NCBI GenBank assembly: GCA_024691265.1
Contig: JAILNT010000209.1
Location: forward strand, 1-39,624
Source: Treponema sp.
GTDB lineage: Bacteria; Spirochaetota; Spirochaetia; Treponematales; Treponemataceae
Reading direction: 5' to 3'
DNA: 39,624 nt
This document shows positions 6,001 to 36,962 of the stretch, piece by piece (within the stretch, counting starts at the first letter, position 1; each line of letters opens with the position of its first letter). The translations under genes and the position numbers were made by a program. A model generated the notes under the pieces. It was not told the origin of the DNA. It saw nothing but the letters and a program-made list of their open reading frames with translations, and ran no database searches.

Positions 6001-9000
6001 AGAACACAGCACCGTTATTATCTACTACATAGAAATATACAGTATGTGCTCCATCGTTTGTATCATAAGGAGTGAAAGTCCATTCACCAGTAGAGCTATC
6101 AAATGTTGTTATATCATAAGAAGCAGAAGCTACGGCAACCTTAGTTGTTATAGTTGTTCCGCTTGTTTCACTTGTAACAGAGCTTGAATCAATAGCTGTA
6201 AGCTGACTTGTTGTTGCAATAAATGTAGTTACAACAGAATTGTCAGAAGAATCATCATCTGAAATACTACCAGAAATTTGAGCATTTTCACCATTCTTTA
6301 AAACATAGCTATCATTATAACTAGAAAGGCTTGTTACCTTTATTGTAGGTCGGTCTGAATCCTGCTTTGTTATAACAGTTTTACTTGCAGTTCCTTCATT
6401 TCCAGCCTTATCAGTCATAGTAAGCCTAAATGTTACAGAGCTTCCATCACTAACTTTTGTTGTATCAAATACACTAGAAGTCCATGAATAGCTTGTAGAA
6501 CCGTCTGTAATAGAATATTCTTCAACTTCTTCACTGCTATCATCAAGAAGCTTTATCACTGTCCAGCTTGAAGAATCAGAAACATCTCCTGTTGTATATT
6601 CAAGCTTTATCTTACTAAGATTTGTATCTTTTGCAGTTCCTGTCAAAGTAAGGTCTTTATTAACCTGAATGCCATCTGTTGAAGAATCTGCATCTGTTAT
6701 AGTGCTAAATGAACCTGTTGGAGCTGTTGTATCATATTCCAAAGAGAAAAGATTTACATTTGTAGCATTTCCAACATTATCACTAACAGTTACGGCAACC
6801 GTCCCTGTTGAGAAATTAGCCTTTGGAATTACAAGAGTCCATGTACTATCTTCTTTTGTTGCTTTTACAGAACTATCTGTTTTTAATACAACACTTCCAA
6901 TTCCTGAAGAAACTTTTGAATCAGAATCAGCAGAAAGAGTCTGTTCTGTGTCGCTTGCTGTAAGCTTAACAGTAACAGATTCTGTACTGCTATTTACATA
7001 TTTTACAAATGAAGAAGAAAGACTTGTTTCATCATCTACAGATACAAGCTCAATATTATCAGAATCAGGAGCCTGAGAATCAAAATAAGCAACTAAAGAA
7101 GATGTCCAATATGTAATATTTCCTGCAGTATCTGTTGCACGGAAATAAATATAATTCTTTGCATAATCGCTTGAAAGAACTGCTGTTGCAGAACCATTCC
7201 ATGCAGTAGATGAAGAAGAACTTGAAGAGGACATTGTACTCCAGCTTCCGCTTTCATCATAACTAGCTTTTGTAGATACCTGATATTCTACAGAAGAAAT
7301 ACCACTAGTTGCATCTGTTACACCAGCTCTAATTGTTACAGAAGAATTCTTATACCAAACACGAGTTACAGTTTCATCGTTTTCAGTAGCCTCATCTGTA
7401 TAAGTATAAGCTGTAGTTGTTATTGTTGGAATAAGACTACTTGAAGATACACTTGAACTATCAGTTGAATCATAAGCAGTTGTTCCAAATACAGGAGCTA
7501 CAGTATCTATTGTAACTGACCGAGTAAGCTCTTTTGTTTTAAAAGCTACATCAGTAGCCGTAATTGTAAAGTCATAGCTTCTATCAGAAAGATTAAGTTT
7601 ACTTAAATCAAGCGACCAGTTATAGTCACTTGGTTCCGATGTTGCAGCAGTAAGACTTATAAGAGAATCTTCATCACTACTGCTTAAAGTTTGATTATTA
7701 CCATCTGCATCAGTGTAAGAAACAGAAATAGAAGCTAATTCATTAGTATCCCATGCTTTTCCAGTAAGAGTAATAGCTTCATTTGTAGTTACGCTTGCAC
7801 TATGACTTTCAGTTAAATTTGGAGCTGCTGTATCATATACAAAGCTCACAGTATCAGAAGTTGTTTCATGACCAAGATAATCTGTTGCAACTACATAAAT
7901 TTCAAAAGCACCCTCGCTATCTCCTAATGAAAGATTTTCAACTTTCCATGAAATATCACTACCAACAGTAGAAGAAAGAGTAACTTCCTCGCCGTCGTAT
8001 AATTTTGTACCAGATTTTGTAAGAGTATATTTTAAGCTCTTTATGCCAGAACCTTCTTCTGTGAAGGTTCCCTGTATTGTTTTTGTTGTAGAAGAAACAA
8101 TTTCATCTGCAGAAGGGCTTATAATACTAACTACAGGAGCTGTTGTATCAACAACTAAAGTAAATGTATAGCTTGTACTTCTTCCAGCCTTATCTGTTAC
8201 AGTTAAAGTATAAACATAGCTTCCATCTGTAGAACCATCATTTACAATTTCCCATGTATTATCAGAAAGTGTAAGTTCTGTTTCTTCATTGTTTAATGTA
8301 TAACTAATCTTAGAAAGATAAGTTTCTGTTACTTCTCCAGAGAAAGTAACTTTACCAGTTGAATAATATTTTTCGCCAGATTCAACGGTCGTATCAGTTA
8401 AGGCATTTACATCACTATCATATAATTTTACACCAGTGTCAGGCGTCATAGTAATTGTTGAAGAAGGAGTATCCATATCAACTGTAATAGCTTTTGATGT
8501 TGTTGTGGAATTTCCTGCAACATCAGTTGCTACAAAAGAAACAGTATGTTCACCTGCTGTTGTAATTTCAGATAAATCTACACTTGCAGACCAAGTTCCC
8601 TTACTTGTATTCATAGAAACCTGAGTAGCATTACTAGTATCTGTATCAATATAATATTTTATGCTTTCAATTCCACTTACTGTATCAGACATAGTTCCTG
8701 TAAATGAAATTGATTCTGCATCATCTCCACCTTTTTTATAAACAGCAGTGTTGTTTGTAACAATATCTGCACTTCCATCTATTGTAGATAATTTTATAAT
8801 AGGAGCCGTTGTATCAACATAATAACTAATAGAATATGTACTTGCTTGTCCGTAAGCATCTGTTGCCGTATAAACAACAGAATAATTACCATCAGCTTCT
8901 GGAACAGTTATTTTATCAGTAAGATTAAATGTAGTTGAATCATCTTCAGACTCTGTAACAGAAAGAGTACTTGTACCATCACCAGAAGAAGTTACAGTTA

Positions 9001-11590
9001 AACCTCCACTTCCATCTGTTATGGTTGCAGAAACGTCAAAACTAGAACTATATGTATTTCCGCTTGAAGGAGTTACATTACTGAATTCAGGTGCTCCGTC
9101 ATCAATAGCAACAGCAAATACAGAATCTTTAAGAGTTGCATAAGATGTTTCATTTGCTGTATCGGTAACAACAAATTTCAAATCATATAAAGCTTCAGAA
9201 AGAGAAGCAGAAGCAGAAGCAAAAGAAACATTAGAAAGAGAATATGAAGTTGAATTTATATTTTCCTTTGTAAATAAAGCTTTATATTCACTGTCAGCTT
9301 CAGAATGCTTTTTGTAATAAATTACAACAGAACTTATTCCGTCATCATCTGTAACTGTTCCTAAAAGTTGATTATTGCTTTTTGTTCCAAAAATATTTGT
9401 TACAGAAACATTTGAATCAGCATAAGCGGCTTTTATACCAGCTGCATCAGTAATTTCTTTATTTGCATTACTCAAAGTTACGCTAGGAGCATCTGTAGAC
9501 TGGTCAAGCTTGTAAGAACCTGTATAGCTTCCTGTATTTCCAGCCTTATCAGTTGCAGAAACTGTAAGAGTAAGAGTATCACCGTCATTAAAAGCAGTTG
9601 TATCTATACTAGAAGCAGAGAAAGTATAACCTGATGTTAAACTTTCAGAACTAGAATTACCGCTTGCATCTTTTAAAGTGTAGCTCACAGAAGTTATTCC
9701 AGATAAATCACTTATAGTTCCATTAAAATTGATTTTTCCGTTAAGACAAATAGAACTATTTCCATCTGAATCCGTAACAGTAACATAAGGAGTCAAACTT
9801 GAAAGGCTGACTTCAGGAGCTGTCGTATCAAGATGAATAGAACGGGAAGCTTCTGCAGAAGTATTATTACTAGAATCAGTTGCAGAAATAGCGATTGTAT
9901 AAAGATAATTTACATCAGAATTATCTGCTGTAAATTCATGATAGCCAGAACCCTTTGTAATATCCAATGTCCATGCATAATCATCAGAATAACTTGCAGT
10001 TGTGCTGCCTGTTATTGTTGAATAAGCAGAAGGAACAGTGCTTGAATCTTCACTTGTAATAGTAAGAGTATAATTTACAGTAACATCATCTTCACCAGAA
10101 GCCGGAACTGCAGTACCTGTAAAGGTAAGACCTGCGGTTGTGTTTATATAAGAAAGAGAAGCAGGGCTTTCAATCTTTACTGTTGGAGGATTACCAGAAG
10201 CACTTAATTTAAAGCCGTAATAACCAGAATTAGGCTCTAAATCCAAACTTCCAGTATCTTCACCAGAAATAAGAATTAAATATGTACTTCCTTCTGCAAG
10301 TTCTGTTGGTAAAGTAAGAGACCATGTATAGCTTTCTACAGAACCAGAAGAATAAGAAGAATTATTTGCAAAATTGTAAACAGGGAAATCTGTGCTTACT
10401 TCATGGTCATCTGTTGCAGCAAAAGATTCTGGGTCAGCAACTATATTTTCTATTTCTTCACTGCTTTCACTTCCTGTAACCTTATACCAGTAAGCTTTTA
10501 ATGTTGCAGGCTTAATATAATTACCATCTGCACCAGGGCTTACTGTAACAGTAACTTTCTGACCAGAAACTGCAGAAAGATTAGCAAGAGCAGACATATT
10601 TGCAGCAGAATAACCGGCAATAGCGTATGTAGGACTTGCATTTTTATCAAGTGTGAAATATGTTCCAGTCTGTTCTATGCTTGCAAGCTTAGTTTTAACT
10701 TCCGCAACTTCTGATTCACTAAGAGATTCTGTAGAGCAATCATAAGTTCCGTTAATAATTTCCATAAGCTCTGTAACAGTAACGCTTGAAAGCAAGCTAT
10801 CTTCACTATAATCATCATATAAATAGCAACTTGTAGACTGATTACCAGCTTCATCTGTTAATGTTATTTCACAATAATAAGGGCTTGTCTGTGCATCATC
10901 AGCAGAACCATAAATAGAATTATAGTTATCATAGATAGTACCTGTACTGCTATCAGAATATTTTGCAATTACAACACTTGTACCGCCGGCTGTGCTTACA
11001 TTTGTGCTTGTATAAGAACCGTATTCAACAGATTTATCTGCATTATATACAGCAACTTCCATTTGTGAGATTGTATGGTCATCTGCTATCTCACCTGTAA
11101 TTTTGAAAGTTTTTCCGTATGCAGTAGGATTAGAAGAATCAACAGAAGCAGGGCTCTTCAATATGAAAACAGGGGCTGTATTATCTATTTCAAATTTGCG
11201 TGAAACTTCACCTGAAGAACGACCTGAACCATCATAAGCTGTAATAGTTGCAGTCCATTCACCATCTTCAAGGTCACCTTTCTTAAAATCATAAGACCAG
11301 GTATTCCCCTTTATAGAAGCGTAAATTGCGTCTTTTGTATATGTAACGGAATTAGAAAGACTTGCATAACTTAATATAATTTTTACAGAAGTAACGCCTG
11401 TATCATCGTCACAACTTCCGGCAAGAGAAAAATCACCGCTTATAACAGAATTAAGTTCAACGGAAGTAATACTTAAAGTAGGAGATTCTGTATCAACTTC
11501 ATCTCCAAGACCAACTTCACAGGCAGAAAATACCAATGAAACAAGAGCAATAAGTATTGGTAAAACAAAAACTTTTTTAAGACCATACAT
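26..11590 (-). CDS. Giant Ig-like repeat lipoprotein (~3854 aa from the inferred start) with C-terminal IPT/TIG-like and beta-propeller-like region
   Basis: Single uninterrupted ORF (track 26..11635). Likely start MYGLKKVFVLPILIALVSLVFSAC, a lipoprotein signal with lipobox-like LVFSAC, preceded by AAGGGG. More than 15 modules with the DTTAP/DNTAP...SG.I..V.Y.L...A.D..GN Ig-like signature. The end contains PYITDI...GRYAVAEGETLTVEGFNFG (IPT/TIG-like) and repeated propeller-like blades. Confidence 0.88.
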   Translation of the reverse strand: MYGLKKVFVLPILIALVSLVFSACEVGLGDEVDTESPTLSITSVELNSVISGDFSLAGSCDDDTGVTSVKIILSYASLSNSVTYTKDAIYASIKGNTWSYDFKKGDLEDGEWTATITAYDGSGRSSGEVSRKFEIDNTAPVFILKSPASVDSSNPTAYGKTFKITGEIADDHTISQMEVAVYNADKSVEYGSYTSTNVSTAGGTSVVIAKYSDSSTGTIYDNYNSIYGSADDAQTSPYYCEITLTDEAGNQSTSCYLYDDYSEDSLLSSVTVTELMEIINGTYDCSTESLSESEVAEVKTKLASIEQTGTYFTLDKNASPTYAIAGYSAANMSALANLSAVSGQKVTVTVSPGADGNYIKPATLKAYWYKVTGSESSEEIENIVADPESFAATDDHEVSTDFPVYNFANNSSYSSGSVESYTWSLTLPTELAEGSTYLILISGEDTGSLDLEPNSGYYGFKLSASGNPPTVKIESPASLSYINTTAGLTFTGTAVPASGEDDVTVNYTLTITSEDSSTVPSAYSTITGSTTASYSDDYAWTLDITKGSGYHEFTADNSDVNYLYTIAISATDSSNNTSAEASRSIHLDTTAPEVSLSSLTPYVTVTDSDGNSSICLNGKINFNGTISDLSGITSVSYTLKDASGNSSSESLTSGYTFSASSIDTTAFNDGDTLTLTVSATDKAGNTGSYTGSYKLDQSTDAPSVTLSNANKEITDAAGIKAAYADSNVSVTNIFGTKSNNQLLGTVTDDDGISSVVIYYKKHSEADSEYKALFTKENINSTSYSLSNVSFASASASLSEALYDLKFVVTDTANETSYATLKDSVFAVAIDDGAPEFSNVTPSSGNTYSSSFDVSATITDGSGGLTVTSSGDGTSTLSVTESEDDSTTFNLTDKITVPEADGNYSVVYTATDAYGQASTYSISYYVDTTAPIIKLSTIDGSADIVTNNTAVYKKGGDDAESISFTGTMSDTVSGIESIKYYIDTDTSNATQVSMNTSKGTWSASVDLSEITTAGEHTVSFVATDVAGNSTTTSKAITVDMDTPSSTITMTPDTGVKLYDSDVNALTDTTVESGEKYYSTGKVTFSGEVTETYLSKISYTLNNEETELTLSDNTWEIVNDGSTDGSYVYTLTVTDKAGRSTSYTFTLVVDTTAPVVSIISPSADEIVSSTTKTIQGTFTEEGSGIKSLKYTLTKSGTKLYDGEEVTLSSTVGSDISWKVENLSLGDSEGAFEIYVVATDYLGHETTSDTVSFVYDTAAPNLTESHSASVTTNEAITLTGKAWDTNELASISVSYTDADGNNQTLSSSDEDSLISLTAATSEPSDYNWSLDLSKLNLSDRSYDFTITATDVAFKTKELTRSVTIDTVAPVFGTTAYDSTDSSSVSSSSLIPTITTTAYTYTDEATENDETVTRVWYKNSSVTIRAGVTDATSGISSVEYQVSTKASYDESGSWSTMSSSSSSSSTAWNGSATAVLSSDYAKNYIYFRATDTAGNITYWTSSLVAYFDSQAPDSDNIELVSVDDETSLSSSFVKYVNSSTESVTVKLTASDTEQTLSADSDSKVSSGIGSVVLKTDSSVKATKEDSTWTLVIPKANFSTGTVAVTVSDNVGNATNVNLFSLEYDTTAPTGSFSTITDADSSTDGIQVNKDLTLTGTAKDTNLSKIKLEYTTGDVSDSSSWTVIKLLDDSSEEVEEYSITDGSTSYSWTSSVFDTTKVSDGSSVTFRLTMTDKAGNEGTASKTVITKQDSDRPTIKVTSLSSYNDSYVLKNGENAQISGSISDDDSSDNSVVTTFIATTSQLTAIDSSSVTSETSGTTITTKVAVASASYDITTFDSSTGEWTFTPYDTNDGAHTVYFYVVDNNGAVFYTGKEAESVTAEDSTSYTVKYVPYLYLSADTSTVDNTDALNYNADSNSPTVDSAVYVTTVDNEEVSTSISTGLVLGGDTNTVDFKITASDANGIAGIIATLTSSTSTDSVLYYTTASTIADTDYSSYTVDSDEFDTTTSSTSASWYIRDIPLSSFTTGSITVKVTSYDNSGLSGSNSFTFMLDNTGPTINLTSPSSSEEVTGSISLVGSSTDTGGSTVESIEYMIPTTEQQALSDTELLALSSGTGFWGGNTKTTSVLQWEFVLDSSSNPSLENYDSDSYYSSYSDGIYTIPVYFRAKDALGNASILKSSLKHNPDADKPVTTFTYPTEDDYDSGKSYITLSGTIRLSGAIEIPSGTTTVDSVYLQIDYDNDGSFDSDDSTYLESCADGYTIVDAESLLTNVQSNNSDVTEITGWTSETTSSNWWGIKASKSSSSWNISINTNNGLDPDDDDSDDIREIRVRACAVNALGKIGAWSSSYTIYIDKNAPTYSSILAQYDNGSSYTDGTSFTNATASATNSYTSGMYLKGDWYIVSTFTDESGIDTSTISVKKNSSKLTVNTDYYVDSSSTANTAIIYIPVDKSSSSVTYTVEAYDNSTSGTAHSSTATYSLYIDNEAPTLSSIKGNDEAFASASTRTDIEDSNFSYKISGTSTDTGSGVEKIVFYFMRGEDDVLTSGNECILDPMLSSSKEIIKDNLDSFEITQDSSSYYMYGKSGIEGSQEDTTSFTPSNSEDITGNSHIRNGGLIYIGGLYRVITAIDSSTGKVTFASATDGTATTAAFPYAQVIDATTEAATASYNNGFSWNFSTTDDGDGMPETFKSSGSSWSWTASIHSGNMADGPVSLVILAFDEAGNVSQYVQSAEIVNNVPRLAKVYLGTDLNGDDSWSLSEFQGYAMSVDSSNEYSSTNTLKTAASSYGYDSAFAIKDKLAVIGEFTGGNNGLKMVFKQDASSTTTSPVEGSGDALLDSDVSLSSISSTSATVAFSDSNSVTFTDAAYNSNYVTNYGMSYSMYGFILDSTTVAGVSSEDELSSTTDGSGKQMSFTFWDATEEKTQGKDSQNCVLYVSDFIIDVVDEVNPTSSINPFYWTSSSDNSIYYNDSTAMGHIDLGTIPSVSGVVKLTGSIYDDQRLASVTISYAGENIATSSYTAKSASWSSDGDLSSNGYNLTVEDDGEISQSGHTANWTLLLDTAYFGNASSKVIAVKATQAKTVSDSALESDASSTQTSSDTKTNYYKISVVPYITDITREDTISGGTMNRSYIGRYAVAEGETLTVEGFNFGTAGTWTVGSNNTETSYTATNSSATARASFTMTVPARSGALTVTCGTSSLNNSNSDSEAYNSEEFKMGGSSTKYTAADNRYLSVWNLGNYFNNTSDGAELQQPVMTADKDGNLYASWAAQSNSNIMINKGLGGISSAVFRCYDQPSVYTGIAFDQKGTSGGANITFIPEHQGSGGTFGRNGMSSTHIVGGSGSINLPSDFMTNSTSYSGYTATVDGNPTFNLDSSGNKTSYYSLESYDVNRRLGSFENPQSARYGNYLHNIWYDNVSESLKYSVVDISDESKFNYNSGAINGWVVLDGGYTGQDRLHTFTQSNTVSGVTAGKTYKEVVNVYNNVLASFDYIHSAVSKDDIGDASKARTYRNSAVYSTEIFVINTNITSANSYSTTSLSYSGLSFYDGALNPEVGDTVAILLNTNGSYKIELRTITAVSGTDDNGSAATIGWDKAVSFLTSDNIGSITATIYKGDMNVVGGEATADLTSFSAADDQSSSAGSSAAIDVTTEGYPVVAYYDGNNSELRVAVASSSEPSLASQWTRISTGKTCSGEVSMKIDGANNIHIMYNNEDGEMCYLFGKYSSGSYNFASEEVVDDNGSLSYGSISVYYDGESYVPTMTYLNKANTANAVKYAYRTAAPASSSSASWDFMIIPSVGSGHYALKENTISLESSNNWTSETTSVLQNVQSVDGASPSTATPATVESVVAFKTSNAYETAYLKKE

Positions 11591-11705
11591 ACGCATAAAC
11601 CCCTTCACTACAAATAGCATTTTATAAATAAACAAGCGTGATAAACTCTCTACTTTCTATAACTCTTGTTTTATATTTTTATATATTTTCTATAATTAAT
11701 ATCTT

Positions 11706-14700
11706 TTAGAATACATTTACCCTTGCACCTACAGAAATCTGGAATACCATATTTTCAACACTTGAGTTACCCGAAGAAGAAATATCAGACGGGATAAACC
11801 AAAGCTGAGGTTCTGTGTAAAGTGAGAAAGTACGGAACATCTTTCTTCCGTAAATAGTCACCTTAGGGAATTCAAGCTGAGCTATAAGAGCTGAAAGAAT
11901 CTGAGCTTCTCCACTACCACTTTCATCAAAACGAGTAAAGTTTGCTCCTATAGCAAGAGAACTTGAAAGCCAGCTCCAATCCGGCCCAAATAAAGACCTG
12001 AAAGGCAAATAACCAACATTTGCAAGAATCTTAAGCCCCATTACATTGCTGCCACCGTATCTCATGTTAGTTTTGCGGAACATATTTCTTTGTGACTGTG
12101 TAAACTGTCCCCATTGAGCCTGAAGTTTTACGTTATCATCAAAGAAAGTTAATCCCACACCAACATTAAAGAGAGTTGCACCCCAGAATTGACTATCAAA
12201 ATACAAGCCCTGAATAAAGCCTGGAATCTCATAAGCTCCCTTATCACCTTTTCTTAAAGAAAGAGTTACTCTCTTTAAGCCGATATTGTCTGCTGCAAGA
12301 CCTGAAAATTCTAACTTCTGGTTATATCTTCCGCCTGCATCTGGAGCTATAAGTCTTACAGTAGGCTTTGTGTGGTCAATCTGAACAATGGCACGAGTTA
12401 CACTTGTTGCACCATCTATTGCAGTTGCCTTTACAAGTATGAAGTGGAAACCTTCTTTCATGTCTTCATTTTCGATTCTGTACTTCCATTCATTTTTGTT
12501 TTTAGCTACAGTTTTGAATGTTCTTCCATTGTCGAAACTGATTTCAATAGATTCAATTTCCTTTGTGCTTAAAAGCTCTTTTATTTCTTTCTTTTTAAGT
12601 CCAGCTTTTTCTTCTTCCGGAATATCATCTTCTGTGAATACATAACCTGCACGACCACGAAGATAAGGGCGGTTATAAGCAAAATCACCATAAACAAATT
12701 CATTAGAAGCAAAATTATCTATAGTTACCCAGCAACCCAAAGCCGTATATTCAATATTTTCTAAAGGAGAAAGTATTCTGTCTTTTTCAGTTACAGCTGC
12801 CACCTGAATTGAATGGATTCCATCTGTAAGAGAAACAGCATCAGGGCCTAAAGAAAACTTGTAATAACCAGATTCAGAAAGTTTTGTAACCGCAACAGGA
12901 ACGTTATCAACTAAAAGCTCAAGACTTCCAACTTCATGTTCACTTTCTACCTGACCATAAATATTGAAATCACCCTGCAAATGCTGTCCGTTCAAAGGAT
13001 AAAGCAAAGAAACTTCTGCCACAGGAGATTCTTTATCAAGCCCTACATTACGGCTTATACGAGTAATATTACCAGCAGCATCTGTTCCAACAAGTTCAAT
13101 GTTATAAACACCACTGTTCAAACTAGAAATATCAAAAGCCTGTGTGATAATAGAATCAGGTTTTAAATTTATACTCTTTAATTCTTCAGGAATTGCATTT
13201 CCTTCAAGACTGCTGATATTTACATAAAGAGTTTTTAACTCAAGGTTATCTGTTGTTTGACCAGAAAGGAAAATTGTTCCAGATGTTTTTGAACCGTCTA
13301 AAGGAAGTTCAAGATTAAGATAAGGAGAAGTATTATCTGTTGTAAGCATGCTTGAATAGAATGCTTTTATTCCGTACCAGTCTGTAATTCTTATAAATAC
13401 AACATGTGTTCCATCTGGTACGACATTTGTATCAAATGTATATTTCCATGTAATATCCTGTTTTTCATGACTGTATTCAGCTACAGCTTTATTATAAGTA
13501 TTTCCGTTATCAATAGAAATCTCTATGAGAGAAATACCGTTTTTATCACTTGCAGTACCTTCAAGAGTTACCATATCGCGTACAGTTGTACTAATAAGAG
13601 GTAATGTCATTTCCCCCTTAGGTTCTTCCAATGAAACTCTAAACGGACGCTGCACTTCATGACCTTTTACACCGTGTAAATCTTCTGCATAAACAGTTAT
13701 TACATGTTCATTGTCAGTAAGTGACTTTATAGGAATATCAATAGAATACTTAAAATCCATTCCGTCTAATTTCTGATATTCATTATCATCTATTTTCCAG
13801 TAAATCGAACAAGGACCATCATCATCATAAATAACACCTGAGATTACAAAATCCCTTGTCATTACGGCATTTTCTTCAGGTAAATGTATTTCTGACACCG
13901 GTAAATCAGATTCAGCATCGATTATAAAATCATACTTATTTATTTTTAGAACATTACCGCTTGCATCAGTAAAATCAAATTCCATGTCATCTTTCAAAGG
14001 ACTTGCACTTGTACCAACATACATATTTGGCATCATAGAAACTGCCATTGGAGTTCTCATATCTCCAGCATATTCAGCCATAGACACAAGACCTGCATCT
14101 TTTACAAGGAATGCAATTATATTTTCACCGTTTATAACATCTCCACTTTCAGGGATTATTACTTCGGCTTCCGGTGCAATCGTATCTTTTTGAACTGCTG
14201 TTGCAGCATAACCTGTTCTTCCACAGCTATTTGTTGCTCTAATATCAATTCCCAAAAGACCATCTTCAAGAGAAGATACATCAAGTTCTGTTCCAAAAGT
14301 TAATTCATAAGAAGCAGTTTTCGTAGCTGGAAGTTCTTTCCAATTCAAACCGCCGTCAAGAGAATATTCAAGCTTAGAAAGTTCTACAGTATCTGAAACT
14401 TTTCCAGAAAGCTGCACAGTATTCTGTATCCATCTTCCAGAAATTGGATTTTCAATAGATATAACAGGTTCATTTGTATTTACAGTAAAAGAAATTTCAT
14501 CTGTTGTATATTTTATTCCGTTCGCATCTTCTACAGTAAGAGAAATATTGTCATATACGCCGTCTTCTTTTGCAACAATATTTATTAAGCTGTCTGTTAC
14601 AGAAAGTTCAAGACCTTCGGCTTTTCCGTTTAATTGAGCTTTAACAGGAAGAGGAACATTTGCATAAGCTTCTATAGAATCATTGGCACGCATTAAAGCT

Positions 14701-17147
14701 TCATGTTTTATCCAATATACTTTATTAGAATTATCTATAAGCTCTGCATCTTTTTCCCTTACTACACTTATTGAAGCTACAACTCTTGCACTTGCACCGC
14801 TTTTTGTTTTTATGTCTGCAACAATACCGGTAAGACGAGAAGGAAGATTATAAAGATAAATCTTTGCTTCATAGCTTCCGTCATCATTCTTTACAAGCTC
14901 AGCTTTTCCATTTTGCATAGCGTCTCCGCCATGAGCCTCAGGTCCTGTAATAGAGTAGAGTACTTCTGTTATAACTTCATTTGTCTGAATATTTAATACT
15001 GCAACTTTATCAAGCTCTTTCTTTGACTGATAAGAAAGAGGAATAGTCATTCCGCTAAGATAGGTTTTTCCGCAAACAGTAGAAAACCAGGCTTTAATAG
15101 GGTTTGTTTCTTCGCTTGCAGATACAAAAGTTAGAGGTCTACTTTCATACTTCAAGCCCTGATTAGTTGTAACAACAACCTTTACACTTTCGCTTTTTCC
15201 TTCTTCTGAAGTTGTGTGAATCACAATAGAATTACCTGCTAAAGAAGCCTTTGCAAAAGGAGTTTCAGGAACAATTTCAACTTTTTCTGCTACTCCGCCT
15301 ACAAAATAGCCTGATATAGGGTGTTCTACATCACAAACAACAACACCTTCCGGGCTTACAGTACTATCAGAGAAAAATACATTTGTATCAAAAACAGAAA
15401 TATGAGTAAGGTCTTTTACATTTACTTCATATTTTTCTGTATAAATCTTTCCATTTATGTTCTTTGCATTAATTTCTATCTCAACAATTCCCCATGGACT
15501 ATTGTCGAAGGGAATATTTACATTTACTTTATTTACACCAGGCTTTAATACAATGTCGTTTTCTTCGCCTTTCTTTCCGTTACAAGTGAATGTATACCAA
15601 ACTCTTTCAAGACCATCAAAAGAAGTTACATCTGTTACAAGCTTTGCATTACTTTCACTTTCTATAAGCATTCCATCTGAGAAATCTGTATTGCCATCAG
15701 CATTAGAAATATATGCAGCAGAAATTAGCGGGTGCTCTTCAAGTACATTAAATAAAACTGTCTGCTCATGGCTTTCAACACCGTTTTTATCAATAGCAGT
15801 TACAGAAATTGAATGCTTTCCGTTAGTAAGTTCTGGAAGCAGAACAAAAAAAGCTCCTTCACTAGAAAGACTATTAACTTCGCCGCCATCTATTTTATAT
15901 CTGATTTCTGCAACACCATCATCATCTGTTGCAAGCCCTCTAAGATATGAATATTTAACTTTCTCATGTTCAATGTTCATATTTTCAAAAGGAGTCTGAA
16001 TAGAAAGAATAGGTCTGTCTAATTCCTGATTAAGAAGAATTTCGTGTTTTACTGTTGTTACGTTACCACTTTCGTCACTAGCCGTTACAATAAAATCCAT
16101 GCTTTTTTCTTTACGGCCAACAGTATCTACATCTTTTACCCAATAAGGATTACCCGGTACAAGCTCAAATTCTCCGCTTTCACTACCGAATCTCCATGTA
16201 AGTTTTTTAACGCCTAAAGTATCCTTTGCATAACCGGCTACAGTAAACTTTCCTTTATTTATACTGCCAGTTTTTGGATAAACAACTTTTACTTCTGGAG
16301 CAGTATTATCTATAAAATATAAGAAAGAATAGATATTTTCTGTGTCAAAATTATCAGAAGCCCTGAACCATATTACAGTAGGCCCATCAGGGAGCTTTGT
16401 TGTATCTACTGGAACTTTGAAATTCCAATGACTCTTTAATCCTTCTTCATTTACAGCCTTATATTTTTCTTCTTTGATTTTTGCAGGTAAAAATGTTTTT
16501 CCGCCATCAATGCTATAGCTTAAGCTTTTTATACCGTTACCATCTTTTACTTCTCCGGAAAGATTTATTTTTCCAGATACAAGCTGACCCATTGTATGAT
16601 TTGTTACCTGTGTTGTAGGTTGTCGTCTGTTAAGCTGCCAGCTAATATGATGAGCATGTCCCTTTAAGCCGTTTATATCAACGCCATAAGCATCTATTGT
16701 ATGAAGTCCTTCAAATAAATCATTAGTATCAAGATAATAAGACCAGAATTCTTTTCCTTCTGCTCTTACCGGATTTTCTGCATCACCATCGAGAATGAGT
16801 TCAACATATTCAACAGCATCATCATCAGCACAAACACCAACTATATTTAAGTTGCCTGTTACTTCCATGTTTTCAAGAGGATTTGCAATTTTTGTTACAG
16901 GTAAATCAGATTCAGGGTCTACATAAATATTAAAAGGTCCACCGTACTGAGTATTTCCACCCTTATCATCAACAGTAACTAAAATGTTATATTTTCCTGG
17001 CTTTTTATTTTCGAGGTCAAATTCTTCCTGCCAGCTATCCATTTTTTCAACATTTTTACTTTCAACCCTATTGCTTTTAGCCTGTAAAAAAACAGGTAAA
17101 CAAACCATCACCATAACCAATAAGAAGCAATTCTTCATTTTTTTCAA
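11706..17147 (-). CDS. Exported Ig-like repeat protein (1813 aa) with C-terminal outer-membrane beta-barrel-like domain
   Basis: N-terminal Sec signal MKKMKNCFLLVMVMVCLPVFLQAKS. Many Ig-like modules (DNTAPEV, SGEVKDGNGIKSLSYSIDGGKTF). Last ~190 aa show alternating amphipathic strands and end in ...QISVGARVNVF with a terminal Phe. Confidence 0.85.
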   Translation of the reverse strand: MKKMKNCFLLVMVMVCLPVFLQAKSNRVESKNVEKMDSWQEEFDLENKKPGKYNILVTVDDKGGNTQYGGPFNIYVDPESDLPVTKIANPLENMEVTGNLNIVGVCADDDAVEYVELILDGDAENPVRAEGKEFWSYYLDTNDLFEGLHTIDAYGVDINGLKGHAHHISWQLNRRQPTTQVTNHTMGQLVSGKINLSGEVKDGNGIKSLSYSIDGGKTFLPAKIKEEKYKAVNEEGLKSHWNFKVPVDTTKLPDGPTVIWFRASDNFDTENIYSFLYFIDNTAPEVKVVYPKTGSINKGKFTVAGYAKDTLGVKKLTWRFGSESGEFELVPGNPYWVKDVDTVGRKEKSMDFIVTASDESGNVTTVKHEILLNQELDRPILSIQTPFENMNIEHEKVKYSYLRGLATDDDGVAEIRYKIDGGEVNSLSSEGAFFVLLPELTNGKHSISVTAIDKNGVESHEQTVLFNVLEEHPLISAAYISNADGNTDFSDGMLIESESNAKLVTDVTSFDGLERVWYTFTCNGKKGEENDIVLKPGVNKVNVNIPFDNSPWGIVEIEINAKNINGKIYTEKYEVNVKDLTHISVFDTNVFFSDSTVSPEGVVVCDVEHPISGYFVGGVAEKVEIVPETPFAKASLAGNSIVIHTTSEEGKSESVKVVVTTNQGLKYESRPLTFVSASEETNPIKAWFSTVCGKTYLSGMTIPLSYQSKKELDKVAVLNIQTNEVITEVLYSITGPEAHGGDAMQNGKAELVKNDDGSYEAKIYLYNLPSRLTGIVADIKTKSGASARVVASISVVREKDAELIDNSNKVYWIKHEALMRANDSIEAYANVPLPVKAQLNGKAEGLELSVTDSLINIVAKEDGVYDNISLTVEDANGIKYTTDEISFTVNTNEPVISIENPISGRWIQNTVQLSGKVSDTVELSKLEYSLDGGLNWKELPATKTASYELTFGTELDVSSLEDGLLGIDIRATNSCGRTGYAATAVQKDTIAPEAEVIIPESGDVINGENIIAFLVKDAGLVSMAEYAGDMRTPMAVSMMPNMYVGTSASPLKDDMEFDFTDASGNVLKINKYDFIIDAESDLPVSEIHLPEENAVMTRDFVISGVIYDDDGPCSIYWKIDDNEYQKLDGMDFKYSIDIPIKSLTDNEHVITVYAEDLHGVKGHEVQRPFRVSLEEPKGEMTLPLISTTVRDMVTLEGTASDKNGISLIEISIDNGNTYNKAVAEYSHEKQDITWKYTFDTNVVPDGTHVVFIRITDWYGIKAFYSSMLTTDNTSPYLNLELPLDGSKTSGTIFLSGQTTDNLELKTLYVNISSLEGNAIPEELKSINLKPDSIITQAFDISSLNSGVYNIELVGTDAAGNITRISRNVGLDKESPVAEVSLLYPLNGQHLQGDFNIYGQVESEHEVGSLELLVDNVPVAVTKLSESGYYKFSLGPDAVSLTDGIHSIQVAAVTEKDRILSPLENIEYTALGCWVTIDNFASNEFVYGDFAYNRPYLRGRAGYVFTEDDIPEEEKAGLKKKEIKELLSTKEIESIEISFDNGRTFKTVAKNKNEWKYRIENEDMKEGFHFILVKATAIDGATSVTRAIVQIDHTKPTVRLIAPDAGGRYNQKLEFSGLAADNIGLKRVTLSLRKGDKGAYEIPGFIQGLYFDSQFWGATLFNVGVGLTFFDDNVKLQAQWGQFTQSQRNMFRKTNMRYGGSNVMGLKILANVGYLPFRSLFGPDWSWLSSSLAIGANFTRFDESGSGEAQILSALIAQLEFPKVTIYGRKMFRTFSLYTEPQLWFIPSDISSSGNSSVENMVFQISVGARVNVF

Positions 17148-30786: not shown

Positions 30787-31328
30787 GACTGTTTCAACTC
30801 ACCTATAAAAACAAGCTTTTCAGATTCTGACAACTGGTTTGGATTTGTACCCTCTACATCTAAGGGGACAGCTAAACCTAAATCTTTATAATAGTTTTTC
30901 CAATAATCAGATATTTTGTTATTTTTATCTCCAAATTGCATTGGTATAGTAGAAAAAATAGGAAGAATTGCAGCTACATACTGTGAGCAATAAAATTTTC
31001 CATTATCAGGATAAAAGCTATCGTTATAATCTTTTCCTAAATGTTTTTCTGCTTCCGCTATTACATTTTCTACATTTATATCAGGGTAGCGGTAAACAAA
31101 TATTTCTCTTTTTTCTTCTTTCAAAAAAGAATGAAAATCTTGTTTTACAACTCCCTTTTTTCTTGTGGCATGATAAATTTTTCCGTTAAGATAAATACCA
31201 ACATGGCTATAGTTACTTGTTGTATCTATTATTACTTTGGAAAATTCAGAAGCATCTCTCATAAAAAGCAAATCGCCGGAAACTAATTCTTCTATGTTAA
31301 CTTTATTAGCATTAATTTTAATATTCAT
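30783..31328 (-). CDS. YiiX/NlpC-P60-like permuted papain-fold cysteine hydrolase
   Basis: GDLLFMRDASEFSKVIIDTTSNYSHVGIYLNGKIYHATRKKGVV (Ser-His-Val-Gly motif) and KFYCSQYVAAIL catalytic Cys. Start MNIKINANKV overlaps the 3' end of nrdG. Confidence 0.72.
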   Translation of the reverse strand: MNIKINANKVNIEELVSGDLLFMRDASEFSKVIIDTTSNYSHVGIYLNGKIYHATRKKGVVKQDFHSFLKEEKREIFVYRYPDINVENVIAEAEKHLGKDYNDSFYPDNGKFYCSQYVAAILPIFSTIPMQFGDKNNKISDYWKNYYKDLGLAVPLDVEGTNPNQLSESEKLVFIGELKQS

Positions 31329-31866
31329 TTTTCTTTTTACCTGTCCATCTTTCTTGTTCTGAAAGTATAGGTTCTGTAATTTTACCAGCCGATTCATCAT
31401 AAATGAGCATTGATTTACGACTTTCTATAATACGCTGATTAGAACTTCCCCTGAATCTTAGGCTTAAAGTTCTTTTTTCAAGAATGAAAGGACCATCTAT
31501 AAGGATATCAACATTTCTTAATAAATTAAGTCTGTTTTCGTCTTTAGCGGAAAGGAGTTCTTCCCATATAAAACCTGTATAGCAGGCAACTTCATAACCA
31601 GCTTCTTTTAAGAGTCTGGCTAATTCAGCAAATTCATTACTCTGATATAAAGGATCTCCACCGCTAAAAGTCACACCTTTACAAAGAGGATTTTTCTTCA
31701 CTATTGAAAAAATATCTTCTGGAGACATTATAGTTCCAACGTTAAAAGCATGAGTTTCTGGATTGTGACAAGCTTTACAATTATGAGCACAGCCCTGGGC
31801 AAAAACCGTAGTTCTTAATCCAGGACCATCAACAATGGAATCGCCTATGATACCTGCTATATACAT
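31318..31866 (-). CDS. nrdG: Anaerobic ribonucleoside-triphosphate reductase activating protein (radical SAM)
   Basis: CAHNCKACHNPETH CxxxCxxC cluster motif, GVTFSGGDPLYQ, next to nrdD. Confidence 0.95.
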   Translation of the reverse strand: MYIAGIIGDSIVDGPGLRTTVFAQGCAHNCKACHNPETHAFNVGTIMSPEDIFSIVKKNPLCKGVTFSGGDPLYQSNEFAELARLLKEAGYEVACYTGFIWEELLSAKDENRLNLLRNVDILIDGPFILEKRTLSLRFRGSSNQRIIESRKSMLIYDESAGKITEPILSEQERWTGKKKNEY

Positions 31867-31873
31867 AAATATT

Positions 31874-32068
31874 CTAGTTAAGTCCGTGCTTTACTCTATC
31901 ATGTTCTTCTGCACGCTTAGCATCATTAAAACGGTCTAGAGTACCAACAAGATAACCTGTAATGCGTCTGATTCTTTCAAATCCAACATCATGACCAAAA
32001 CCTGTATCCTCACGCTCTTCAACAGCTATAGAGCTAGGAATAACTTCATTTTCTACTGCTACTGTCAT
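31874..32068 (-). CDS. Stand-alone glycyl-radical domain of anaerobic ribonucleotide reductase (NrdD C-terminal part)
   Basis: FERIRRITGYLVGTLDRFNDAKRAEEHDRVKHGLN matches the NrdD C-terminal glycyl-radical signature (RxxGY...RFNxxKxxE...RVKH). Own RBS TAAGGAG upstream of the ATG. Confidence 0.85.
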   Translation of the reverse strand: MTVAVENEVIPSSIAVEEREDTGFGHDVGFERIRRITGYLVGTLDRFNDAKRAEEHDRVKHGLN

Positions 32069-32107
32069 AAAACCATCTCCTTAACTATTTTTGGTTATTT
32101 ATGTTAA

Positions 32108-34477
32108 TTAAAAATAACGAGCCATATTCAAAGGGAATTTCTTTCTAAGTTCAGCAATCTTTTCAGGAGAAAGACTTTCTCCCTCTCGTCTACCACATCT
32201 AGGGCAAACATCTCCGATTACACCGACATAACCGCATAATGGGTCTCTATCTACAGGGTGATTAACACTTCCGTAACCAATTCCAGCATCATGCATACAT
32301 CTAACTACGCTTTCAAAAGCTTCAACATTATTTGCTGTGTCCCCATCAAGTTCAACATAAGTAATATGTCCTCCATTAGTTAAAGCATGGTAAGGAGCTT
32401 CCTTGTTGATTTTTTCAAAAGCACTTATATGATAATAAACAGGTATATGGAAAGAATTTGTGTAATAGTTTCTATCTGTTACACCTGGAATTATTCCATA
32501 TCTTCTTTTATCTAATCTTACAAAGCGACCACTTAAACCTTCTGCTGGTGTTGCTATAAGTGCAAAATTCAAACCACGCTTTTCAGTTTCCCTATCAAGG
32601 TAATTTCTCATGTAGCCAACAATCTCAAGACCTTTTTTCTGCATATCATCACTTTCACCATGATGATGTCCATAAAGAGCAACAAGAGTTTCTGCAAGTC
32701 CTATAAAACCAACGCTTAAACTACCATGTTTTAATACTTCCTCTACTTTGTCCATTGGTCCAAGCTTTTCGCTACCAAGCCAAACACCTTGTCCCATAAG
32801 GAATGGATAATTATAAACATGCTTATTGCACTGAATCTTGAAACGGTCTAGCAACTGCTGCACAACAAGAGCCAGCATTCCATCAAGTTTCTCATAAAAA
32901 AGCTTTTCATCGTGCTTGCTTTCAATAGCAAGCCGAGGAAGGTTTATTGAAGTAAAAGAAAGATTGCCACGGCGAGGGGAAGTTTCATGCTCTCTGTCAT
33001 AAACATTACCCATAACACGAGTTCTACAACCCATATATGCAATTTCTGTTTCCGGGTGACCTTCCTTGTAATATTGTTTATTAAAAGGTGCATCGATGAA
33101 ACTGAAATTAGGGAATAATCTTTTTGCACTAACTTCACAAGCACGAATAAACAAATCGTAATTAGGTTCACCGGCATTATAGTTTATGCCATCTTTTACC
33201 CTGAAAATCTGAATAGGGAATATAGGTGTTTCCCCCATTCCCAATCCTGCATCTGTCGCATCAAGCATATTTTTCATAACCATGCGACCTTCAGGACTTG
33301 TATCAGTTCCGTAGTTTACAGAGCTAAATGGAGTTTGAGCACCTGCTCTTGAATGCATTGTATTCAAATTATGAATTAATGCTTCCATAGCCTGATAAGT
33401 TGCTCTGTTTGTTTCTCTATAAGCTTCTTTTAATGCAAATTTCTGAGCATTTTCTATAATTTTCTCAGAAAAACCTCGTCTGGTAAAAGCATTCTTTTCA
33501 GCCTGTAAAAATCTATTATCAACAGCAAGACATCTCTTAAATAGAGTTTCTGCTTCGATTTTTTCATCAATAGCTTTTATAACAGCCTTTATATCTGTTT
33601 TGCTTTCACCATCGCATTCTTTTGCTAAAGCATTGAAAGCCTTTACATCTGAATCTTTTTCATCAGCACTCATAGTCATAACTTCAAGAGCTCTGAATAT
33701 ATCAGCTGAATAAAAAGTCTTATAAGATTTTGCAACTCCAGGAGCAAGACCTCTATCAAAATCAACAATACTCTGACCACCATGCTGGTCATTTTGATTA
33801 GATTGAATTGCTATACAAGCTAAAGCTGCATAACTTTGAATACTGTTAGGCTCTCTTAAATAGCCATGTCCTGTACTAAATCCTCCCTTAAAGAGTGAAG
33901 AAAGCTCTATTTGACAACAAGTTGTTGTTAAAGAATAAAAATCAAAATCATGAATATGAATATAGCCGGAATGATAAGCGTCTGCCTGTTCCTTTGTAAG
34001 CAGATATTTTTCATAGTAGTCTTTAGCAGCTTCACTTCCATACTGAAGCATTGTTCCCATAGCTGTATCGCCATTAATATTGGCATTATCACGCTTTAGG
34101 TTACTTTCTTTTGAAGCAGAATTTGTAAGCTCATCAAAAGTACGCATGAGATGAGAATTCATCTCTCTATTATTTTTCCTTTTGTTTGCACAAGCTACAT
34201 ATTCTCTTAACACAGAATCATATCTACCATCTTTTTTCAGAAGAGCTTCTACACTTTTCTGAATCTGGTCACTCGATACACTCTCTAAAAGAGATGCTTC
34301 CAATTCGTCCACTAATTGTTTTATGACATCATTTCTAAAATCTGACTCAAGAACATTAGTGCCACAATTCCCATTTTCTGACTGAACAAAAGCCTTTACA
34401 ATCGAAGTTTCAACCTTATTTCTATCGAAATCTTCAGTACTTCCATCGCGTTTCTTAACTGTAATTGATTTCTCCAT
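32108..34477 (-). CDS. nrdD: Anaerobic ribonucleoside-triphosphate reductase large chain (ATP cone, catalytic barrel, Zn ribbon; lacks the C-terminal glycyl-radical segment)
   Basis: ATP cone SITVKKRDGSTEDFDRNKVETSIVKAF, LTTTCCQIELSSLFKGGFSTGHG, CGYVGVIGDVCPRCGRRE Zn site; ends ...FPLNMARYF. Start MEKSITVKK chosen (track ORF extends to 34525). Confidence 0.92.
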   Translation of the reverse strand: MEKSITVKKRDGSTEDFDRNKVETSIVKAFVQSENGNCGTNVLESDFRNDVIKQLVDELEASLLESVSSDQIQKSVEALLKKDGRYDSVLREYVACANKRKNNREMNSHLMRTFDELTNSASKESNLKRDNANINGDTAMGTMLQYGSEAAKDYYEKYLLTKEQADAYHSGYIHIHDFDFYSLTTTCCQIELSSLFKGGFSTGHGYLREPNSIQSYAALACIAIQSNQNDQHGGQSIVDFDRGLAPGVAKSYKTFYSADIFRALEVMTMSADEKDSDVKAFNALAKECDGESKTDIKAVIKAIDEKIEAETLFKRCLAVDNRFLQAEKNAFTRRGFSEKIIENAQKFALKEAYRETNRATYQAMEALIHNLNTMHSRAGAQTPFSSVNYGTDTSPEGRMVMKNMLDATDAGLGMGETPIFPIQIFRVKDGINYNAGEPNYDLFIRACEVSAKRLFPNFSFIDAPFNKQYYKEGHPETEIAYMGCRTRVMGNVYDREHETSPRRGNLSFTSINLPRLAIESKHDEKLFYEKLDGMLALVVQQLLDRFKIQCNKHVYNYPFLMGQGVWLGSEKLGPMDKVEEVLKHGSLSVGFIGLAETLVALYGHHHGESDDMQKKGLEIVGYMRNYLDRETEKRGLNFALIATPAEGLSGRFVRLDKRRYGIIPGVTDRNYYTNSFHIPVYYHISAFEKINKEAPYHALTNGGHITYVELDGDTANNVEAFESVVRCMHDAGIGYGSVNHPVDRDPLCGYVGVIGDVCPRCGRREGESLSPEKIAELRKKFPLNMARYF

Positions 34478-34788: not shown

Positions 34789-36321
34789 ATGCAAAATCCT
34801 TCCAGTTCGTATTTCGATTTTCTGTTAAAAAATGACAGCGGAGTACGTCTTCTAAGGTCAAGGTCCGCTCAGGTAACAATATCATTTTTTTATAACATAT
34901 TCAGAGAAAAACACTTACAAGTTGTGGAGGCTGACGAATTTGAAAGCATGCTTGTAACATTTCTCAATACTGATAACCCTGATGAAAAGGAGCTTGAAGA
35001 AGACGCAACAGAAAGTCTTGCAGCACAAAATCAAAACACACAGATAGAATATTTCTCAGATGTAGTTGAAAGAGCAAAGTTATATATAAATTACTGGTGT
35101 TCAGAAGAAAGGGCTTACCTAAGACGATATCATAACGCCCAAGGGCAAACAGTTATAGAACTCAATGCAGGGATAGAAAGATTATTTAACTGGCTTGAAG
35201 ATTGTGAACAAACAAGTTTTATAGGTACCGAATCTAGATTTAAGAATATTCTTCAACAGCTTAAAGATTTGAAGATTCACACTAATAAAGATGTAGACAA
35301 ACGTATTGCAGCTCTTCAAGAACAGAAAGATAAAATTGAAAGAGAAATTGAAACAATAAAAAAGACAGGAGAAATGGAGCTATACACCCCTGTTCAAATC
35401 TCTGAAAGACTTTCTGATATAAGTAAAAATTCAAGAGAATTGCTTAGCGATTTCAGACAGGTTGAAGATAATTTCCGTAAAATCATGCAGGATATTTACA
35501 AGGCTCAAAGCGAAGAAGACAGTTCTAGAGGACAGATTTTAGGTTATACACTTGATACTAGTAGAAAGTTAAGGGAATCCCCTCAGGGACAAACATTTCA
35601 ATCTTTCTGGAATTTTATTTCACAAGACAGGGATAACGAAATAAATAATCTTGTAAATTCTATTATTGAGAACTCTGTCAATAATAATTCTGAACTCTGG
35701 CATGACGATTTTATGCTTGAATTGAAAAAGTATCTTTATCAGGCAGGTCATAAAGTTGTTGAGCAAAACAGAACTCTTACAGAGAGAATAAATAAACTTT
35801 TGTCTAAGCAAGATTTAAATGAAAGACGGCAGATTAATGTTCTTACATCTCAAATCAAAAAAGGAATGTTAGAATATAAAGAAAAGCTCATAGCAGGAAA
35901 AAAAGAAGTGGAAGAAGATTTTATGTTCTTAGATGGAAAAGCTTCTCTTTCTTTTCCTCAAACCCGTTATGCAGTATTTCCAGAACACAGAAATAAAGCT
36001 GCTGATATCAAAGTATTTGATGGAAATCTTCTGGATTCTAATGTTTTTTCAAGTCTGCTTCATCAGTTTTATATTGATGATAAAGTCCTTAAAAAACATC
36101 TTTCAGATTTCAGACATAAAACAGATAAAAAACAATTTACTCTAAAAGATGTTATTGATGAGTATCCTATACAAAAGGGCTTATCGGAACTTATAGCATG
36201 GTTTGAACTTGCTATGCATACAGATAAAGTAGTTATAACAGACGATAAAAGAGACACTATTCAATATTCAAAGAACGGTACTATAAAATCAGTAACAGTG
36301 CCAAGGACAATTTTTTCATGA
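34789..36321 (+). CDS. jetA: Wadjet system protein JetA (DUF3375-like, MukF/kleisin-type)
   Basis: GVRLLRSRSAQVTISFFYNIFRE, TSFIGTESRFKNILQQLKDL, ISKNSRELLSDFRQVEDNFRKI, first gene of a JetABC-type operon. Confidence 0.88.
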   Translation: MQNPSSSYFDFLLKNDSGVRLLRSRSAQVTISFFYNIFREKHLQVVEADEFESMLVTFLNTDNPDEKELEEDATESLAAQNQNTQIEYFSDVVERAKLYINYWCSEERAYLRRYHNAQGQTVIELNAGIERLFNWLEDCEQTSFIGTESRFKNILQQLKDLKIHTNKDVDKRIAALQEQKDKIEREIETIKKTGEMELYTPVQISERLSDISKNSRELLSDFRQVEDNFRKIMQDIYKAQSEEDSSRGQILGYTLDTSRKLRESPQGQTFQSFWNFISQDRDNEINNLVNSIIENSVNNNSELWHDDFMLELKKYLYQAGHKVVEQNRTLTERINKLLSKQDLNERRQINVLTSQIKKGMLEYKEKLIAGKKEVEEDFMFLDGKASLSFPQTRYAVFPEHRNKAADIKVFDGNLLDSNVFSSLLHQFYIDDKVLKKHLSDFRHKTDKKQFTLKDVIDEYPIQKGLSELIAWFELAMHTDKVVITDDKRDTIQYSKNGTIKSVTVPRTIFS

Positions 36322-36962
36322 AAGATAATGCATGGGGTGCAGTTTGCGTAAAATTATTGCAAGGCCCAATTTATAGAACAGGTGCAAATGATAGCACATG
36401 GAATAGTCTTACAAGCTGGATAAAAGACATAAATGAATATTTTTCAAGATTAAATCTAAAAGTTACGGTAAATGACAATGACGGTTATGCTTATCTTGAG
36501 CAAATCGAAGATGCCGAAGATACAAATAAAATACCTCGCTTAATAAAGAAAGTTCCCTTAACTATAGAGCTTTCATTATTGTGTGTTTTACTTAGAGAAG
36601 CTTTAGATGATTTTGATGTATCGGAATCAGAAGACGCTTTTCTTGTTATGAAAGAAAGTGAAATAAAAGACATGATGATGCCTTATATGAAAAATATTCC
36701 TGACCAAACAAAAATATACAGGAAACTTGATGAATATTTGAATCAGCTTGTTCGTTTATCTTTTATAAGAGAAATAACAGACATAAAATCTGAAAATAAT
36801 AATCAGCAGAGAGATAGAGAATACGAAATCAGAAGAATTATAAAGGCTAAAATAGGACCTTCTTTTTTAGCTGAATTCAAAAAGCGTTTGAACAATATTC
36901 TTGATAATACAGAAAGCGGATATGAAGAAGTAATGAAAGAAGAGGTTTCTGAAGATGACTAA
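36318..36962 (+). CDS. jetB: Wadjet system protein JetB (DUF4194-like, MukE-type)
   Basis: 4 nt overlap with jetA; LNLKVTVNDNDGYAYLEQ, LTIELSLLCVLLREALDDFD; size and position fit DUF4194. Confidence 0.86.
   Translation: MKDNAWGAVCVKLLQGPIYRTGANDSTWNSLTSWIKDINEYFSRLNLKVTVNDNDGYAYLEQIEDAEDTNKIPRLIKKVPLTIELSLLCVLLREALDDFDVSESEDAFLVMKESEIKDMMMPYMKNIPDQTKIYRKLDEYLNQLVRLSFIREITDIKSENNNQQRDREYEIRRIIKAKIGPSFLAEFKKRLNNILDNTESGYEEVMKEEVSEDD

Follow-up and report, generated by a model that had tools for sequence, protein, structure and literature searches.

Glycyl-radical enzymes are usually seen as single chains, each bearing its own O2-labile radical, and to our knowledge the known exception to this one-chain arrangement is YfiD, a repair part. 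In class III (anaerobic) ribonucleotide reductase (RNR), the activase NrdG generates the glycyl radical on a one-piece NrdD and the radical then passes to a cysteine. One-piece NrdDs (Prevotella copri, 8p23; phage T4, 1h78; T. maritima, 4u3e) share with the locus reported here the ATP-cone, the barrel, the radical cysteine and the zinc ribbon, as well as the glycyl loop sequence and a neighbouring NrdG. In those enzymes the loop is covalently attached, whereas here it forms a separate subunit of 44-64 aa and NrdD carries a new, predicted C-terminal helix.

Among small glycyl-radical proteins, GrcA/YfiD and the phage T4 protein Y06I, a spare part for pyruvate formate-lyase (PFL; PMC8683613), are alike in being autonomous and in having an N-terminal extension. 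Their loop is of the PFL type (PF01228), whereas the one described here is of the NrdD type (PF13597), and GrcA/YfiD repairs an enzyme that owns a glycyl domain, whereas the partner here has none, which points to a constitutive subunit and not a repair part; neither a PF01228 domain nor a glycyl domain on the partner itself was found at our locus. The PFL-YfiD study considered that spares for other glycyl-radical enzymes might exist and validated just those of PFL (PMC8683613). Other RNRs are also divided. The split class II enzyme NrdJa/NrdJb of Pseudomonas (PMC4520616) is likewise encoded in two genes, but it uses a cobalamin radical and the part split off is not the radical-storage domain. 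Class I RNR (R1 and the radical-storing R2) likewise keeps radical storage and catalysis on separate polypeptides, but its radical cofactor and fold are unrelated, whereas the small partner described here is itself a piece of the glycyl-radical enzyme. Phage nrdD genes may also occupy more than one ORF (T4 group I intron, c-st intein, phiAS4 and 949; PMC3653736); these are interrupted by introns, inteins or unexplained breaks, whereas here the break falls exactly at a domain boundary and is conserved across phyla, and the paper on the phage genes does not mention the glycyl domain. In the open literature that we searched, we found no description of an NrdD in two pieces, of its glycyl domain as a separate entity or of a glycyl protein standing alone.

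The window, by which we mean the whole stretch of DNA analyzed (39,624 nucleotides, a 39.6-kb contig of a Treponema sp. genome), carries on its minus strand the operon nrdD-grd-nrdG, made up in this order of nrdD (789 aa), a 64-aa glycyl-radical ORF (grd) and nrdG, which begins 7 nt past the end of the small ORF. The features are given below by their positions in the window.

32108..34477, minus strand: large chain encoded by nrdD (789 aa and a stop codon), which has the ATP-cone and the catalytic barrel and lacks the glycyl-radical loop (PRK07111 equivalog, 1026 bits)
34175..34462, minus strand: ATP-cone domain of NrdD (PF03477, E 3e-13)
33026..33028, minus strand: codon of the cysteine presumed to carry the thiyl radical (MGCRTRV), which does not vary among 72 aligned relatives and aligns with MGCRTRV of P. 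copri NrdD
32195..32236, minus strand: zinc-ribbon cysteines of NrdD (CGYVGVIGDVCPRC)
32111..32179, minus strand: split-specific C-terminal NrdD tail (ESLSPEKIAELRKKFPLNMARYF), a predicted helix, kept in split NrdDs and found in no one-piece NrdD
32108-32110, 32099-32101 and 32081-32083, minus strand: three in-frame TAA between the ORFs (within 32081..32110)
32077..32082, minus strand: AAGGAG, Shine-Dalgarno sequence for the small ORF, whose ATG lies 8 nt downstream
31874..32068, minus strand: glycyl-radical subunit, 64 aa, from domain matches
31955..31957, minus strand: codon of the putative radical glycine (Gly38 in RITGYLVGT), invariant in relatives, by homology with P. copri NrdD
31318..31866, minus strand: nrdG activase, radical SAM (TIGR02491, 146.5 bits, above the cut-off)

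We consider it very likely that this locus encodes an obligate two-subunit class III RNR with the radical loop on the 64-aa partner, and we infer the activation and docking of that partner. The large chain has the NRDD catalytic domain, ATP-cone, radical cysteine and HxHD motif of a class III RNR, and the activase is close by, both at this locus (TIGR02491) and in relatives. In a profile match it covers positions 1-531 of the 562 in Pfam NRDD, plus the N-terminal ATP-cone, and HIHD, MGCR, the NxN flap and the zinc cysteines are invariant or nearly so in large chains (40 and 72 aligned relatives). Read from the ATG at 34477, the chain ends about 28 residues past the last zinc-ribbon cysteine; the original prediction was right that it stops after the zinc ribbon, but the length that it gave, 790 aa, includes the stop codon. 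A second copy of the glycyl-radical loop, which would have made the chain a one-piece enzyme, was sought throughout the 789 aa and none was found.

The small ORF matches NRDD positions 533-562 (E 1e-7), exactly the part absent from the large chain, and in NCBIfam it matches three NrdD models over their last ~35 positions, which agrees with its earlier assignment as an NrdD glycyl domain. Its sole PDB match is the C-terminus of P. copri NrdD, aligned at the radical-loop segment, and the domain matched is PF13597, not the PFL-type Gly_radical. The C-terminal glycyl-radical loop of a class III RNR is present, but it sits on a separate 64-aa protein. Across 23 aligned small proteins the radical glycine and FERIRRITGYLVGT are invariant. 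The N-terminus is poorly conserved, with G-x-(G/D/E)-(V/I/M)-x-F kept ahead of ERIRRITGY; the window's protein has the longest N-terminus in the aligned set and its relatives are mostly shorter there.

To survey the arrangement in other organisms we used the best 80 of 334 large-chain relatives in public bacterial genomes. The same split is present in 51 of these 80, a proportion that is not a prevalence because only the best 80 of the 334 relatives were kept; the remaining ones hold the loop in one chain. The fission suspected from the window alone is conserved across phyla among these best relatives and both parts are kept together, as would be looked for in a split RNR of the NrdJab kind. 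The carriers belong to the Bacillota (Faecalibacterium, Gemmiger, Fournierella, Faecalimonas, Lachnospiraceae, Ruthenibacterium and others) and, outside it, to the Spirochaetota and Kiritimatiellota/Verrucomicrobiota. Overall, many bacteria of the gut, and phages too, show this split. The 51 loci contain 52 small ORFs (two at one locus) of 44-60 aa, and 50 of them are followed within 900 nt by an NrdG cysteine motif. Because of the E-values and the recurrence at 51 other loci, the ORF pair is not a chance find. Within the order to which Faecalibacterium belongs, a profile of the small subunit matched 126 of 297 sampled genomes, whose layouts were split, one-piece or mixed; in the window's own phylum it matched just 3 of 246 genomes.

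In the mechanism that we propose, the large NrdD chain would supply the ATP-cone, allosteric sites, catalytic barrel, radical cysteine and zinc ribbon, and the 64-aa protein the glycyl-radical loop. NrdG would activate the small protein, which may be diffusible, by taking H from Gly38. The activated subunit would then dock with its loop in the barrel beside the catalytic cysteine. Its C-terminal segment would keep it in place, as would the NrdD tail helix together with the G-x-(G/D)-V-x-F segment, and in each turnover the radical would move from glycine to cysteine to substrate and back. The substrate offered to NrdG would be small and flexible, and the ATP-cone could gate docking. Because the small subunit is not covalently attached, a copy cleaved by O2 could be swapped for a fresh one. 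In P. copri NrdD, dATP at the ATP-cone leaves the glycyl domain disordered, so an ordered/disordered switch is known (PMC11226230), and fission at precisely this mobile domain is chemically plausible. Split NrdD would be a natural and widespread case, in a DNA-precursor enzyme of strict anaerobes, of a radical subunit of just 44-64 aa. It offers a simple system in which radical installation (NrdG and the small protein) is separated from catalysis, and in which one can study the entry of the loop into the barrel and a possible repair of O2 damage through exchange of the subunit.

The small ORF might instead be a mere GrcA/YfiD-like spare, standing in for the domain that O2 has damaged in a second, one-piece NrdD of the same cell, a reading that we consider unlikely. 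GrcA is an established precedent for PFL (PMC8683613), orphan NrdD-type domains occur beside one-piece NrdD in at least 24 genomes, judged by frame length, and the window's genome does have part of a one-piece NrdD. This part is an end fragment of another NrdD type at a contig edge, and its loop (RRVSGYLAEE) is different. In addition, the small ORF sits between a loop-less NrdD and nrdG, in a conserved order, and some split carriers are without any one-piece NrdD. Because the large chain has no glycyl domain, the small protein would be an obligate subunit and not a repair part; the analogy to YfiD/GrcA drawn in the original prediction holds for a small radical protein and fails for the spare-part role.

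A free-living cell requires an RNR. We found neither a class I/II large subunit (PF02867) nor another NrdD in six split carriers (G294, G296, G298, G301, G302 and G604), and likewise no other RNR catalytic gene in G318 and G574. Since no other RNR was found in several carriers, the split enzyme should be functional, with the caveat that these carriers are mostly metagenome-assembled genomes (MAGs) and may be incomplete. Isolates such as Fournierella massiliensis (G601) have a class I/II enzyme besides their split NrdD and no other NrdD. Because of the one-piece NrdD fragment, the split copy need not be the sole RNR of the window's genome.

All split NrdDs in the compared set bear extra tails and the one-piece NrdDs are without them. 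The common tail type, GExISPEKLxELRKxYP (pattern GE-x-(I/V)-(S/P)-x-E-(K/R)-(L/I)-x-E-L-(R/K)-(K/R)-x-(Y/F)-P), was predicted as a helix in both of our AlphaFold2 runs. A second class ends in T-x-GYHGDPxEExDRxPNPL (L039, L043, L079, L083, L175, L180-L183 and L186), and profile comparison indicates that the two classes share their first part, including the GRxEGE anchor (96%). Comparisons of the tail with the glycyl domain gave probabilities of 45% and 12%; the second tail is perhaps a decayed glycyl domain. The ~30-aa N-terminal extension of the small protein, earlier put forward as a docking segment, did not hold up, as it is not conserved. The tail helix appears to be the better docking candidate, and together with the G-x-(G/D/E)-(V/I/M)-x-F motif it may form a new interface.

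For structure prediction, AlphaFold2 was given a single chain read through the stops and a 72-row alignment of mostly one-piece relatives, in which some of the one-piece FERIRRI segment fell on columns of the tail. The resulting model folds as an NrdD (pLDDT 81.9, pTM 0.80), with RIRRIT as a strand and a pLDDT of about 62-76 in the glycyl loop; an earlier run with 40 rows gave a pLDDT of 74. The best Foldseek match was chain B of the ATP/CTP-bound P. copri NrdD (715 ordered residues), with a TM of 0.86 by target over 875 columns, a span that we attribute to alignment of the glycyl-domain part across the linker inserted there. The model is consistent with normal docking, and is biased towards it by the joined chain and the one-piece homologues.

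It is quite improbable that the tail of the large chain stands in for the glycyl loop, with the small protein acting as a regulator. GY is retained in some tails (e.g. TIGYHGDPNEERDRRPNPL), and the distinct tail class keeps G-Y followed by EE, but the window's tail has no such GY, L063 and L068 have GQ in its place, and the small protein keeps every radical-loop residue.

Returning to two subunits made separately, both window ORFs share one frame, and the 42-base stretch (14 codons) between them holds the three TAA and the Shine-Dalgarno. The shared frame would suit a joining of the ORFs in expression, by stop-codon read-through, frameshifting or intron removal, so that they act as one chain, but three stops lie in the way, and a spacer of 39 nt has no room for an intron; no Rfam intron was found. 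The frames of the relatives' small ORFs relative to nrdD (0/1/2) are distributed 17/15/20 (n=52), so just 17 are in frame, and the gaps run from 11 to 669 nt with a median of 77. A Shine-Dalgarno of at least 5 bases stands ahead of 50 of the 52. The small ORFs are under strong purifying selection, with a pN/pS of 0.088 (17 pairs), synonymous change being about eleven times commoner per site. Varied frames, independent Shine-Dalgarno sequences and purifying selection therefore make separate translation the rule and exclude ORF joining as a general explanation; we regard it as very unlikely in the window. The coding evidence gives good support to the small ORF being translated as a separate protein from its own Shine-Dalgarno, as first proposed, and to a genuine, conserved split that puts the radical glycine and the catalytic cysteine on different polypeptides. 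The probability is negligible that a one-piece nrdD was broken up by an error of sequencing or assembly or is decaying as a pseudogene: the source MAG is fragmented (452 contigs, 87.5% complete) and the ORFs, being in the same frame, are separated by stops alone, but the junction has three in-frame TAA and a Shine-Dalgarno, the small ORFs are under selection, the 51 other split loci vary in frame and spacing, cultured isolates (Faecalimonas umbilicata DSM 103426, Fournierella massiliensis DSM 100451 and [Clostridium] fimetarium DSM 9179) carry the split as well, and its recurrence in relatives refutes a sequencing error.

A tree of the NrdD core (77 rows) shows the split forms scattered over several clades, with 6 changes, at least 3 of them forced by well-supported branches. 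A single split clade was rejected by the AU test (p 3e-41, quick tree). The scatter and this test point to repeated fissions, re-fusions or transfer. On a long branch, the window NrdD clusters (99% SH-aLRT) with four further split NrdDs from spirochaetes. In one Oscillospiraceae MAG (L036), a single NrdD chain bears two complete glycyl-radical domains in tandem; it is possibly an intermediate, in which a duplication would be followed by loss of the first copy and separation of the second.

The contig was assigned to its genome because the ParB that it encodes is 54-63% identical to ParB of genomes of the same genus and because of the GC range of its sampled genes (33-40%). Genes for DUF3375 and DUF4194/MksE adjoin nrdD (34789-36962, plus strand) and may open a Mks/Wadjet-like condensin operon, which possibly continues beyond the contig end. 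The window also has two very long minus-strand ORFs, at 26-11635 (3869 aa) and 11706-17147 (1813 aa).

Free-standing NrdD glycyl domains occur in several other arrangements, and no description of orphan, glutaredoxin-fused or phage stand-alone forms was found in the open literature searched. Two small ORFs each are present in L052, G343 and G328, one NrdD and three small ORFs in G381, and an extra orphan small ORF in G574, G565 and G294. At least 24 genomes have an NrdD frame of one-piece length and a separate frame of ~95-137 aa bearing the glycyl domain. At 18 such orphan loci (L150-L167) we found ~90-aa proteins with an N-terminal region ahead of the same NrdD glycyl loop; the neighbours at five of these orphan loci resemble ordinary chromosomal genes, and two orphan loci lie near genes resembling sporulation sigma factors. 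Of the forms seen, these ~90-aa orphans make the strongest candidates for spare parts of NrdD. In many Spirochaetota, among them the window's genus, a different NrdD is split (L100-L111 and L115-L119); it lacks the loop, which lies on a downstream protein of ~175-235 aa that has a glutaredoxin-like C-terminal domain (CPNCPP). A free-standing spirochaete-like glycyl-loop ORF (VYSRVCGYFRPVSNWNKGKKEEF) is present in the genome of Victivallis vadensis (L168).

That the NrdD glycyl domain is an exchangeable module, used by many anaerobes as a stand-alone subunit, by some in spare copies, as a ~90-aa orphan spare beside one-piece NrdD, in the spirochaete glutaredoxin-like fusion and in phage copies that refresh or take over the host RNR, is a proposal that we find evenly balanced. 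The phage copies hint at an auxiliary gene, small in size, through which a phage could influence the host's supply of DNA precursors.

The small-subunit profile found 80 viral loci in IMG/VR (L188-L267), where the domain is nearly always a short ORF; 62 of the short viral ORFs have no NrdD within ~4 kb. In L195 (3974-4138) the stand-alone phage glycyl domain adjoins endolysin and terminase genes. Phage NrdDs without the loop and with a separate glycyl ORF of 87-97 aa are present in L287, L288 and L294, and NrdG follows the glycyl ORF in L287 and L294 (the same contig as L211). In Eggerthella phage EL753P1, an isolated phage (L268:2706-6137), NrdD ends after the zinc ribbon, and a separate glycyl-domain gene, whose frame is interrupted at the loop, is annotated as hypothetical.
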